From positions 1-36,808 of the forward strand of contig JAPHRO010000077.1 in the NCBI GenBank assembly GCA_026195895.1: 36,808 nucleotides of DNA, written 5' to 3'. The notes beneath the pieces were generated by a model. The model worked only from the letters and a program-made list of their open reading frames with translations. It searched no databases and was not told the origin of the DNA. The translations under genes were made by a program, and so were the position numbers. Shown here piece by piece: positions 32,446 to 36,808 of this stretch (position 1 is the stretch's first letter; the number at the start of each line of letters is the position of its first letter). This DNA is from Gammaproteobacteria bacterium. GTDB lineage: Bacteria > Pseudomonadota > Gammaproteobacteria > SZUA-229.

Positions 32446-34362
32446 ATGGAAAAAATCCTCGAAATACGTGATGGGTGTAATACCCCTGGTCAACTACTCC
32501 GAAGCCTGGCCTTCTCCCGCTTTCTGAAAATTTATAAAGCAGAATTTATCGAGGATCTTGGGCGACGCTCCCAGAATCAGAGATATGAAGCCGAACACAA
32601 AATCGACTTTATTAAAAAAATACGCACCAGCGATCTGATCAAGATTCTCGAATCCAGTGGCTTTGAAACCCGACAACAGGAAGAACAGGCCCGCGAACTG
32701 GTGCGCTTTATCGATGGCGCCTTCCACCATTATCGAGGCAAAGGCTATACCCGCCTGGTGCGCCTGCAAAATGACGTGGTATCCACCGGTATAGAGACAC
32801 CGGAAACGGTAAAAGACAAGGTTTCGGGCAAAGCCCAGATCGTTGATGACCTGATTATTGAAACCCGCCGCGAACTGTTAAACAAAGTAGGGCTCGACCA
32901 GGGCGTGCGCCGCACCCCGGGAATGGATGCATCACCCAATGTCACCGCCGGCGAAATCTCCGGGCACTATTTTAATTACCCGGCCGAATACGCACTGTTG
33001 TCACATATTCCGCTCACCATAGCGGCTGACATGAAAACCGGCGTTGATTACTCCACACCCTCCAACAAGCGCGCCAAACCGTTTTATGAGCTGGACCACA
33101 ACCCACTGGACCAGTCCAAAATCGACATCGACGACTGGGTATCCGTGCCGCTGCAGGTAGGCACCTCACTCATCATTACCTTCATCCACAAATCCCGCGG
33201 CTGCATCGAAATGGAACCGGGCCTGTTGAACCTGTTCCCATTCACCAAAACCGCCGACCTGATCAACCAGCGCAAGGCCGACGGTATTTTCTTCTTCGGC
33301 ATGCCGGACTCCGATCTATCCGACCTGGGCTACTTCTACGATGAAGAGAATAAATTGCTTATCGGTGTGGTACCCGATATTGATGAACTGAAATATTTTG
33401 GCTACTGTAAAAAACCCATCCTGACCCTGCACAATGTGCTGGCCATTTTGAATGGCGACCTGCCACTGCACTGTGGCTGCACTCGCTACGTAGTGCGCTT
33501 CGATGAAGACGAGGAAGTCTACATCGCCGAAATGCTGATCAAAGCCGATGACATGGGCAAGATCAGCCTGGTTAAAAACGAACAGGACAAAATCACCCGC
33601 CCCATCTTCACCGGCACCGAAACCGGCGCCTTTGCCTGTCTCGACGGTTTCAGCGACCAGGCCAAACTGCAAATGGCCGGCCGCGAAGTGGGCTACAACA
33701 AAGACACCGGCTCCAATGCCCGCCAGATCGTACCGGTTACCGATGTCGATGAACTGTTCCGCGACGATCCACTGGACGTGCTGCTGTACATGAACAACTT
33801 CACCCTGATGGAGCCCGGTGAGTCCACCATCCAGGCCGACATGCACATCGAAACCGCACTGGAGCATTTCCGTCTCGGCGAACGTGTCGCCGCAGGCTCC
33901 ACCCAGACTCACCGCGGTGCCAAGGAAAGCAGTTACTGGGCCAACCCCTTTCCGCTATTAGTGGATAACAACGACGAGATTTTACACCCGGCACTGTATG
34001 AAAAATTTTCCGACAACGAAAAAGGTTTCATCGGCGACATGAACATCCTGATTAACCGCGGCGAATTAAAAGTAGGCGTTGCCCACAGCCAGTTAATGGC
34101 CGGCGCCTATGAAGGCAGCAGCGATGAAGACATCACCCGCTGCGGTTTTGCGAATCGCGAGAGCGTCGAACAGGAAGGTCCAGTACGCCTGGCAGAAGAC
34201 CTGATCGGCCTGATCAAACAACAGGCTATAGAAAAACGTAAACGCATGCCAGGCAGACCTTCGGAAGTCAGCATCACCGTGGCACTGGTGGGCGATAGCC
34301 GCACCGGCAAATCGGAAACCGCGGAAAAAATGGAAGGCATACTGCGACTGCAACTGGTTTAA
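32446..34362 (+). CDS. PEPCK/HPr-kinase-superfamily-like protein with a C-terminal P-loop
   Basis: A 638-aa soluble protein. The Walker A sequence VALVGDSRTGKSETAE lies at residues 612-626, only twelve residues from the stop. By eye, the middle and C-terminal parts run parallel to ATP-type PEP carboxykinase: LPLHCGCTRY (342-345) with MHCSAN, GSNARQIVPV (from 422) with TENTRVSYPI, HFRLGERVAAGST (from 474) with HFLSGFTAKLAGTE, LHPALYEKF (514) with LHPTQYAEV, then a NILINRG segment with YLVNTGW. In PEPCK the P-loop precedes these; here it follows them. The N-terminal 200 residues are not recognised. Function unknown; it may be a kinase. The gene is intact and is followed at once by a hairpin. 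Confidence 0.6.
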   Translation: MEKILEIRDGCNTPGQLLRSLAFSRFLKIYKAEFIEDLGRRSQNQRYEAEHKIDFIKKIRTSDLIKILESSGFETRQQEEQARELVRFIDGAFHHYRGKGYTRLVRLQNDVVSTGIETPETVKDKVSGKAQIVDDLIIETRRELLNKVGLDQGVRRTPGMDASPNVTAGEISGHYFNYPAEYALLSHIPLTIAADMKTGVDYSTPSNKRAKPFYELDHNPLDQSKIDIDDWVSVPLQVGTSLIITFIHKSRGCIEMEPGLLNLFPFTKTADLINQRKADGIFFFGMPDSDLSDLGYFYDEENKLLIGVVPDIDELKYFGYCKKPILTLHNVLAILNGDLPLHCGCTRYVVRFDEDEEVYIAEMLIKADDMGKISLVKNEQDKITRPIFTGTETGAFACLDGFSDQAKLQMAGREVGYNKDTGSNARQIVPVTDVDELFRDDPLDVLLYMNNFTLMEPGESTIQADMHIETALEHFRLGERVAAGSTQTHRGAKESSYWANPFPLLVDNNDEILHPALYEKFSDNEKGFIGDMNILINRGELKVGVAHSQLMAGAYEGSSDEDITRCGFANRESVEQEGPVRLAEDLIGLIKQQAIEKRKRMPGRPSEVSITVALVGDSRTGKSETAEKMEGILRLQLV

Positions 34363-34369
34363 AAAACTC

Positions 34370-34398
34370 ACCGCCCCTGATCATTAAAAAGGGGCGGT
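34370..34398. terminator. hairpin between the PEPCK-like gene and intI
   Basis: CCGCCCCT and AGGGGCGG arms with an 11-base loop. A T-run follows on the minus strand only (after TGAG), so it fits the integrase transcript best, but it can also end the plus-strand gene. Confidence 0.75.
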
Positions 34399-34402
34399 AT
34401 TA

Positions 34403-35773
34403 TCACAACACATCCAGCGGACTGTTCACACTCACTCCCGGCTTGTTCAACACGTGAGTGTAAATCATCGTTGTCGACACATCCGCATGACCGAGTAACT
34501 CCTGCACTGTACGAATGTCATAGCCCGACTCCAGTAAATGGGTGGCAAATGAATGGCGCAATGTATGTGATGTTACTCGTTTGTTAATACCCGCCTTCTC
34601 AGCTGCAATCCTGATGGCCCGCTGAATTGCGCTTTCATGCAAATGATGTCGGCGTATTTTCTGGCTTCGCGGATCGTCCGCCAGCTTTGAAGCCGGAAAC
34701 AGATATTGCCACTTAAGCTGTTTACCAGCACCGGGAAACTTTTTCGCCAAAGCACCTGGCAAATGAACCCCATCATAGTTAACCGCCAGATCACCCTGAT
34801 GAACCTCAGCCACGTGCCTAAGCTGTTCACGCAACTGATCGACCAGGCTCGCAGGCAATGGCACCATCCTGTCCTTACCACCTTTTGCACTTCGTATGGT
34901 GATCTGCGCATAATCAAAATCCACATCGCATATTCGCAAACGTACGCACTCCATTAGCCTCATCCCCGTGCCATACATCAGTGTTGCCATCATGCGATAG
35001 AAATCATTGGCAAAGGATGCAAACAGCGTCCGGACCTCCGGCTTTGATAATACAACCGGCAATCGCCTCGGACGTTTAGGCCGCGCATACTCACTTAACT
35101 CAATATTGTTCTTTCCCAGCACATGCTTAAACAGAAAAATAATCGCATTCAGGGCCTGATTTTGTGTATTTACCGCCACATTTCGCTTAATGGCCAGATG
35201 CTCCAGATACTCGGTGATATGGTGTGCATCCAGCTTTTCAGTTTCAGCCTCGCCCGTAAACAGTAAAAATCGCCCTGCCCATCCCACATAAGACTGCTCA
35301 GTTTTAATCGAATACTGGCGCATCCTGATTTCTATTATCAGACGCTCAAACAGGCTGGGAAATTTTCCCATTATTGTTTTGTTAAACTTTCCAGCCTGCG
35401 CAATAGAAAAATCATCGACTGATTCTGATCTGGCAATGGTCCCATGACTGGCCGGTAGTTCACGGGCAGCTCCTCGCCAGTAGTCCCATTGAAATTCAAC
35501 TGCCCAGCCCGTCGCCAGCATATGTACAAACAATATATGCAGGGCATCAACTACCTGCACAAACTGCCAGTCTTTTAAATGAGATTGTCTACCTATCTCC
35601 TCAAGGTAATGCTCCAGCATCTGCGGAGTATGCTGAGCCAGACGCACCGACGAATGCACTTTAATATAGTCCTCAGCACGTTTCACATACCATCGAACAA
35701 CATTCGGCTTAACACCATAAGATATTGATTTTTTAATATAATTATCCCAGAAACGGGAAACGGAAGAATCCAT
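34403..35773 (-). CDS. intI: integron integrase with an extended N-terminus
   Basis: A 456-aa tyrosine recombinase. The catalytic residues are R272 (GTGMRLMECV), H403 and R406 (HTLRHSFATHLL), H429 (LLGHADV) and the nucleophile Y438 (TTMIYTHVL). The integron-specific extra segment is present (KKFPGAGKQLKWQYLFPA), together with RRHHLHESAIQRA and the C-terminal VNSPLDVL. Typical IntI proteins have 320-340 residues; this one has about 120 more at the N-terminus (FWDNYIKKSISYGVKPNVVR and LKDWQFVQVVDALHILF), resembling a duplicated SAM-like DNA-binding domain. AAGGAG lies 7 bp before the ATG. It faces away from the cassettes, the usual orientation. Confidence 0.95.
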   Translation of the reverse strand: MDSSVSRFWDNYIKKSISYGVKPNVVRWYVKRAEDYIKVHSSVRLAQHTPQMLEHYLEEIGRQSHLKDWQFVQVVDALHILFVHMLATGWAVEFQWDYWRGAARELPASHGTIARSESVDDFSIAQAGKFNKTIMGKFPSLFERLIIEIRMRQYSIKTEQSYVGWAGRFLLFTGEAETEKLDAHHITEYLEHLAIKRNVAVNTQNQALNAIIFLFKHVLGKNNIELSEYARPKRPRRLPVVLSKPEVRTLFASFANDFYRMMATLMYGTGMRLMECVRLRICDVDFDYAQITIRSAKGGKDRMVPLPASLVDQLREQLRHVAEVHQGDLAVNYDGVHLPGALAKKFPGAGKQLKWQYLFPASKLADDPRSQKIRRHHLHESAIQRAIRIAAEKAGINKRVTSHTLRHSFATHLLESGYDIRTVQELLGHADVSTTMIYTHVLNKPGVSVNSPLDVL

Positions 35774-35818
35774 TGCAATCTCCTTTGCAGCTTATTTCCA
35801 TAAAATCCATTTACATGT

Positions 35819-35847
35819 ATTATGTTCTACAAAAGGGAGAATAACAA
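35819..35847 (-). promoter_or_regulatory. putative intI promoter
   Basis: On the minus strand TTGTTA (35847-35842), a 17-bp spacer and CATAAT (35824-35819), about 46 bp before the integrase ATG. No clear LexA box is seen nearby. Confidence 0.5.
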
Positions 35848-35890
35848 AAGTGATACATGGACATCCACCTATCCCCCGCAAACACGACAT

Positions 35891-35911
35891 CAACCTAATA
35901 CACTGTTATGT
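35891..35911 (+). other. attI site of the integron
   Basis: CAACCTAATACACTGTTATGT ends in GTTATGT (35905-35911), identical to the right end of the attC at 36711-36717, and the CAAC on the left gives the inverted L/R core-site pair of a simple site. The first cassette begins with TTATGTGTA here. The exact limits of the full attI, upstream toward 35774, are not known. Confidence 0.7.
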
Positions 35912-35939
35912 GTAAAAACAACAATCAAGGAGAAACTCA

Positions 35940-36320
35940 ATGAGTGAGCTATATTCCGAACATCCAGTCATGTTCAAAAACAACCCAATCGGGTTCATTA
36001 TTACTCTACTGCTGATACCAGTGTTCGGTTTAGGCTTGCTAATCTTACTTGTCTGGCATCTTCAAAACAAAGCATCAAAATTAACTGTGAAAGAAAATGA
36101 AATTCTTTTTGAAAAGGGCCTTCTGAGTAAAGAACGTTCAGAGGTTAATATTAGTAGTGTGAGAACCACAAAAGTTAAGCAGTCATTTTTCAATCGAATA
36201 TTTGGTGTAGGAGCTATCGAAATATATACAGCCGGAGATTCAGCAGAAATTGTCGCAACCGGAATGCCTGACCCAAATAAAATTCGTGAGCTTATTAAAG
36301 CACGCCAGAATGGTGGGTAA
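35940..36320 (+). CDS. cassette gene: PH-domain (bPH2/DUF304) membrane protein
   Basis: A 126-aa protein. Residues 17-42 form one or two hydrophobic stretches (IGFIITLLLIPVFGLGLLIL), followed by a bacterial PH domain: LTVKENEILFEKGLLSKERS, then ISSVRTTKVKQSFFNRIFGVGAIEIYTAG. YdbT-type PH domains occur in membrane-stress and export proteins, but this short version has no assigned role. AAGGAG lies 8 bp before the ATG. It is the first gene of the first cassette, 29 bp after the attI crossover, so it may be read from the integron cassette promoter. Confidence 0.85.
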   Translation: MSELYSEHPVMFKNNPIGFIITLLLIPVFGLGLLILLVWHLQNKASKLTVKENEILFEKGLLSKERSEVNISSVRTTKVKQSFFNRIFGVGAIEIYTAGDSAEIVATGMPDPNKIRELIKARQNGG

Positions 36321-36325
36321 TCATT

Positions 36326-36640
36326 ATGGTTGGCGAAACAGACAATAAAGACAAAGATGAGTCCCGAAAAATAGCAATAGCCCTTATTGCTTTGGTTTTG
36401 GTGTTAGGGGTCGCTATTTTGCTAATGCTCCCAATGCTGTCGGAGATAGTGACGGTTCATCTTTCACCAGGTCTAGGGCTTAAGGACTCTGCGGTAATAT
36501 CTTTCTTTGTTACGGTAGTAATAATGATAGTGTTTGCAATCACTTCCGGTGATGGGCTGTTGGGTGAAATTCAGTTTATTCTTGGCGGGTTCTTTCTTTT
36601 CTTTGTAATTATCTGGCTTTTAGTTGCGTGGATATTCTGA
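36326..36640 (+). CDS. cassette gene: small three-helix membrane protein
   Basis: A 104-aa protein with a charged N-terminus (GETDNKDKDESRK) and three hydrophobic segments: IAIALIALVLVLGVAILLML, AVISFFVTVVIMIVFAI and ILGGFFLFFVIIWLLVAWIF. No family recognised. It starts 5 bp after the PH-domain gene within the same cassette, with GGTGGG upstream, so the two genes form a small operon. It ends 10 bp before the attC. Confidence 0.75.
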   Translation: MVGETDNKDKDESRKIAIALIALVLVLGVAILLMLPMLSEIVTVHLSPGLGLKDSAVISFFVTVVIMIVFAITSGDGLLGEIQFILGGFFLFFVIIWLLVAWIF

Positions 36641-36650
36641 GAAATAAAAC

Positions 36651-36717
36651 ACATAACAATGCCTTCCAGCGGACGCAGTCGCTGACGCGCCTGCTCCGCT
36701 GAAGGCAGACGTTATGT
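36651..36717 (+). other. attC site (59-base element) of the first cassette
   Basis: Outer core ACATAAC (36651-36657) and GTTATGT (36711-36717) are exact complements. The inner arms are TGCCTTC-CAGCGGA and TCCGCTG-AAGGCA, complementary apart from one extrahelical C, with a loop of about 20 bases. One unpaired base on one side is the strand-selection feature of attC hairpins. The cassette therefore spans about 35906-36711. Confidence 0.92.
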
Positions 36718-36733
36718 GTAGCAAGGAAAAATA

Positions 36734-36808
36734 ATGGAATATAAATCAAAATGCCCAAATTGTAATACCCACCAGTCAAGGTGGGATGCATTGGAGCCAT
36801 TCCCTGGC
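36734..36808 (+). CDS. partial gene of the second cassette, zinc-ribbon start
   Basis: The first 25 codons of a gene cut by the window end: MEYKSKCPNCNTHQSRWDAL and on. CPNC suggests a zinc-ribbon or CxxC motif. AAGGA lies 7 bp before the ATG, and the gene begins 17 bp after the attC, as expected for a cassette gene. Nothing else can be said. Confidence 0.6.
   Translation, partial: MEYKSKCPNCNTHQSRWDALEPFPG

Follow-up and report, generated by a model that had tools for sequence, protein, structure and literature searches.

The window, the 36,808-nucleotide stretch of DNA analysed here, carries an integron cassette that holds an obligate two-gene unit, and elsewhere the same unit stands alone as a chromosomal operon. 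Gene 1 encodes a small PH-domain protein and gene 2 a three-helix membrane protein (Table 1). The pair's operon has been captured once as a promoterless cassette and is otherwise found as a bare operon. We favour, at a probability of about 0.4, a role for the pair in membrane protection or tolerance of peptide stress.

Table 1. Features at the integron end of the window (positions are those of the window).
Feature	Position	Strand	Assignment or remark
intI, integron integrase, 456 aa	34403..35773	-	TIGR02249
attI-side crossover ACACTGTTATGTG	35900..35912	+	predicted cleavage between G35905 and T35906
Integrated cassette, 806 bp	35906..36711	+	attI crossover to attC R'
Gene 1, bPH_2 PH-domain protein, 126 aa	35940..36320	+	PF03703
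Gene 2, three-helix inner-membrane protein, 104 aa	36326..36640	+	no known family
attC of the cassette	36651..36717	+	perfect 7-mer R''/R' arms
Start of the next cassette's gene MEYKSKCPNCNTHQSRW...	36733..36808	+	cut by the contig end

The integrase gene lies next to the cassette in divergent orientation, and the cassette is the first captured unit beside it. Its product matches the integron integrase profile TIGR02249 over residues 147–456 in an NCBIfam search (E 2.4e-127, 424.7 bits); PF00589 and PF13495 also match in a Pfam search, and IntI and tyrosine-recombinase motifs can be read directly in the translation. An N-terminal extension of about 140 residues precedes the standard integrase and falls outside every profile match. 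Extensions of this type, 31–34% identical, are present on integrases in Candidatus Thiodiazotropha genomes (L065 and L067), and a literature search on the extension returned nothing specific.

The limits of the cassette follow from its two crossover sites. The attI-side core GTTATGTG, with its G at 35905, is located 132 bp upstream of the intI start codon and is identical to the R' core at 36711, which is the pattern expected for both ends of an integrated cassette. Because the same GTTATGTG thus stands at the 5' end and in the attC R' core, the cassette can be bounded as given in Table 1. In single-stranded form the attC has a folding energy of -27 to -31 kcal/mol (z -7.7 to -9.4), and 0 of 200 shuffled sequences equalled it. 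A rule-based scan of window positions 33000–36808 found this attC as its sole attC-like site and none between the PH and membrane ORFs, so both genes share one cassette. The sequence-only reading had placed the cassette, its attI point, its attC and the spacing of its genes exactly, and the intervening attC that it proposed as a check on its claim was not found.

At the scale of the whole genome, a loose attC pattern matched 88 sites, compared with 54 in a reversed control, and a search for a second array detected no close match to the window attC elsewhere in that genome. An Rfam search returned no match above threshold. The array is visible only as far as the end of the contig at 36808, 76 bp into the gene of the next cassette. 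That cassette's protein (MEYKSKCPNCNTHQSRW...) is small, with a CPNC motif, and is possibly a zinc ribbon.

Within the cassette, the PH ORF precedes the membrane ORF on the plus strand with 5 bp between them. The leader before gene 1 is 34 nt long and includes an AAGGAG ribosome-binding site, and no promoter above chance level was found in the cassette. Since the leader is this short and promoter signals do not exceed chance, transcription of both genes would start at the promoter that the integron has beside attI, with translation of gene 2 probably coupled to that of gene 1. The sequence-only reading regarded the pairing as unusual for a cassette; cassettes with two ORFs are indeed not the rule, yet they have been described before (PMC12444791).

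The PH-domain assignment of gene 1 is well founded. The protein matches bPH_2 (Pfam accession PF03703) with an E value of 2e-16 and 60.4 bits against a curated cut-off of 22, and it consists of a hydrophobic N-terminal segment followed by a single bPH_2 domain. A model of its close relative from L034 has short helices at residues 16–24 and 31–45, forming a short hairpin, and then the PH fold. The best PDB matches for this PH fold are the bacterial PH domains 3dcx and 3hsa, and no solved structure related to gene 1 by sequence was found. The gene 1 alignment comprises 25 relatives. Two copies carry lesions: gene 1 is frameshifted in L060 (L060:3001-3374), and in L047 (L047:3001-3369) an in-frame stop truncates it two codons ahead of the next stop.

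Gene 2 matches no family in Pfam or NCBIfam and has no PDB relative by sequence or by fold. Its AlphaFold2 model consists of three long helices, so the combination of a PH-domain and a three-helix membrane protein proposed from the DNA alone is borne out. A motif, GDG-[LI]-[LI]-GE-x-QF, is located between helices 2 and 3, and within it G75, D76, G77, G80, E81 and Q83 are invariant in an alignment of 28 sequences; one further relative, L085, has E in place of D76. Residues K8, K10, R14 and K15 precede helix 1, from which we infer by the positive-inside rule that the N-terminus and the GDG loop lie on the cytoplasmic side, as does the PH domain.

Gene 1 was searched for in 84,980 species genomes (GTDB), which yielded 28 loci at 59–89% identity. 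Gene 2 is directly downstream in 28 of 28 by tblastn (one copy is cut by a contig end), and order and strand of both genes are the same at all of these loci and in three further genomes (G180, G689 and G712). The gap between the genes, where measured, ranges from -11 to +22 bp and includes ATGA-type overlaps. When sets of 398 and 369 genomes were searched by profile for gene 2, the only hits besides the window were G180, G399, G689 and G712, each with gene 1 adjacent; G180 carries the two genes at 74% and 79% identity, and the G399 locus was left out of the extra count because its flanks are the same as those of L057. Counting the window genome, gene 2 is present in 4 of 369 genomes of the class and 2 of 398 of the phylum. 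We saw no gene 2 without gene 1 in the loci and genomes searched, and more distant PH proteins (21–43% identity) lack the three-helix partner. A specific PH subfamily is thus tied to gene 2, and the pair is an obligate two-gene operon. The suggestion that the two genes form a genuine coupled module, which would have failed had their homologues never been found together, is therefore upheld.

Purifying selection on both genes is strong, and the two are co-inherited. Their dN/dS values, from comparisons of the window with L034 or L035, are 0.03–0.08. The correlation between the protein distance matrices of gene 1 and gene 2 is r 0.76, a value reached in 0 of 2000 permutations; this shows co-inheritance, which linkage alone would also produce.

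The hosts are mostly Gammaproteobacteria, mostly marine and scattered, with one additional record from the Thermodesulfobacteriota. Among 193 relatives of the window genome searched, gene 2 was found only in G180, which shares no rank with it below class. The scattered hosts (including the Desulfofustis record L052) and the near-absence of gene 2 from these relatives indicate that the pair has probably spread patchily by horizontal transfer, and single odd-host cases could derive from mis-binned contigs. In a search for the donor lineage by tree, no supported branch includes the window, whose closest rows are L035 (Porticoccaceae) and L034. A phage, plasmid or viral origin of the pair was rejected, since the phage, plasmid and viral-contig collections searched contained no gene 2 homologue; 67 viral pattern matches for gene 2 were all rejected by tblastn.

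Outside the window, the pair is flanked by unrelated chromosomal genes that differ from host to host and are mostly housekeeping-like, which suggests that it works as a self-contained unit. Neither strict nor relaxed scans detected an attC beside any other copy. The strict scan recovered attC-like sites near other integrases as a positive control (L062, L069, L070 and L073), and the relaxed scan, with a total of 5 sites against a shuffled mean of 5.3, gave no sign of hidden attC sites and found only the window's own. Co-occurrence outside integrons, which the sequence-only reading had put forward as a check, is thus seen at chromosomal loci that have no attC, and the window copy is the sole intact cassette among the copies found.

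One partial exception may be the Porticoccaceae copy at L035 (L035:3700-4313). At this locus the sequence ACATAACAAGGCG downstream of the pair resembles an attC left half, and beyond it lies a broken integrase gene that has lost part of its middle. This copy may be a decayed cassette. L040 was considered as a second integron copy and rejected: its integrase is upstream of the pair, and its pair-side flank matches that of the integrase-free L038.

A stable chromosomal site is seen in Porticoccaceae and related marine bacteria (L039 and L041–L044), where the pair sits after a MAPEG gene. Across L041, L042, L043 and L044 the DNA downstream of the pair differs, holding an unassigned ORF with hydrophobic stretches, a DUF3024 gene, nothing, or a 297-aa ORF. 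With the MAPEG-side flank constant, the DNA after the pair in these loci looks like a small insertion hot spot.

We propose that the two proteins build one inner-membrane complex. A short hairpin at the N-terminus would anchor the PH protein in the membrane and leave the PH domain on the cytoplasmic side, and the partner's N-terminus and invariant GDGLxGExQF loop, facing the same compartment, would serve as a docking or working site. A read-through model of L034, in which gene 1 and gene 2 are joined, has a pTM of only 0.54 and comes without an interface score. As the least certain step, the complex may guard or repair the inner membrane, with membrane-active peptides as one possible threat, a role that has also been suggested for the YdbS/YdbT pair of Bacillus. 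Against this membrane-protection role, no regulator or stress-gene neighbour recurs beside the pair, gene 2 lacks known relatives and is distinct from YdbT, and the analogy with characterized systems draws on a very widespread domain. The stress device envisaged by the sequence-only reading is kept, by analogy, as a possible function. The fuller proposal, that the pair is an undescribed two-component membrane-protection complex spread between distant bacteria as a bare operon and in at least one cassette, with membrane-stress tolerance gained in a single recombination step, is one that we advance tentatively.

Less probable than the membrane-protection role, though the likeliest of its rivals, is that an ordinary membrane-maintenance operon was captured by chance and confers no benefit within the integron. 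Integron capture is blind to a gene's function, the pair is otherwise a chromosomal operon, and the window genome holds only this one copy, all of which would fit a chance event. The intact reading frames and low dN/dS, on the other hand, argue that the captured lineage remained functional, and the pair lies in the first cassette of the array, where expression is normally highest.

We consider it unlikely that the pair is an anti-phage defence system, in which the PH protein would sense an infection-related change in the membrane and the three-helix protein would act on the membrane. Such a role, also raised by the sequence-only reading, is compatible with the patchy spread of the pair in its class and phylum and with carriage in a cassette, and gene 2 gives a weak PADLOC match to a CARF/LolE-TM model of 1791 positions (E 0.002, 13.5 bits). 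This does not amount to a real PADLOC match, gene 1 has none, and we found no positive evidence for defence. The neighbours across hosts are housekeeping rather than defence genes, gene 2 is strongly conserved rather than diversified, and searches of phage and plasmid records did not find it.

Similarly unlikely is that the pair assists an exporter of the SMR (Gdx-like) type or otherwise serves as a transport accessory. An SMR gene adjoins the pair at L054:2522-2992, L057:2666-2992 and L018:2218-2538; in two Gilvimarinus species it precedes the pair by 9 bp, in G180 it follows the pair after about 20 bp, and the L057 gene matches PF00893 with an E value of 8e-32. These two independent juxtapositions, in opposite order, favour a link, as does the frequency of SMR genes as cassette cargo. 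However, in most hosts no SMR gene adjoins the pair, and SMR genes are common enough that chance adjacency is possible. A toxin–antitoxin-like stabilising cassette, of the kind that stabilises large arrays (PMC11551772), is very improbable: the pair does consist of two small coupled genes in a cassette with one small membrane protein, but searches of Pfam and NCBIfam assigned neither product to a toxin or antitoxin family, selection is comparably strong on the two, each of which is an integral membrane protein, and the pair is mainly chromosomal, with no gene 2 in the plasmid records searched.

The source of most cassette genes is not traceable. Here, the same two-gene operon is visible outside integrons in about thirty species and in an intact cassette in one, which makes it a good case for how chromosomal operons become cassettes. 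Our analysis also defines a conserved, obligate gene pair that carries a strongly conserved loop motif, probably cytoplasmic, has no family name and is simple to test. In the open-access literature searched we found neither this pair described nor its occurrence as both chromosomal operon and cassette; two-ORF cassettes as such were already known.

Among known PH-protein systems, the closest functional parallels to the pair are YdbST and DdE/DdF. The lone bPH_2 protein WP_040175341.1 of the Phaeobacter piscinae plasmid pS26_106 is 42.6% identical to gene 1, whereas it has no adjacent three-helix partner. The PH proteins DdE/DdF are required for export of enterocin DD14, a membrane-active bacteriocin (PMC8657885). 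They resemble the pair in that a small bPH_2 membrane protein acts with a second membrane protein, and differ in that no bacteriocin or ABC transporter genes are present here and the partner's architecture is unrelated. In Bacillus, YdbST is encoded by a sigma-W regulated operon, for which protection against amylocyclicin has been reported (PMC3498285, PMC8144471). On the basis of its architecture, gene 1 is like the YdbS half of the Bacillus subtilis system: both are short, combine N-terminal membrane segment(s) with one bPH_2 domain, and are paired with a second membrane-protein gene. YdbT, by contrast, has 493 aa, six TM segments and three PH domains (PMC8657885), whereas gene 2 encodes a 104-aa three-helix protein with no PH match, so the pair is not a YdbST system. 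Finally, the cassette itself departs from a typical integron gene cassette in carrying two coupled ORFs rather than one, and conforms to it in its integrase, crossover sequence, attC, short leader and first position.
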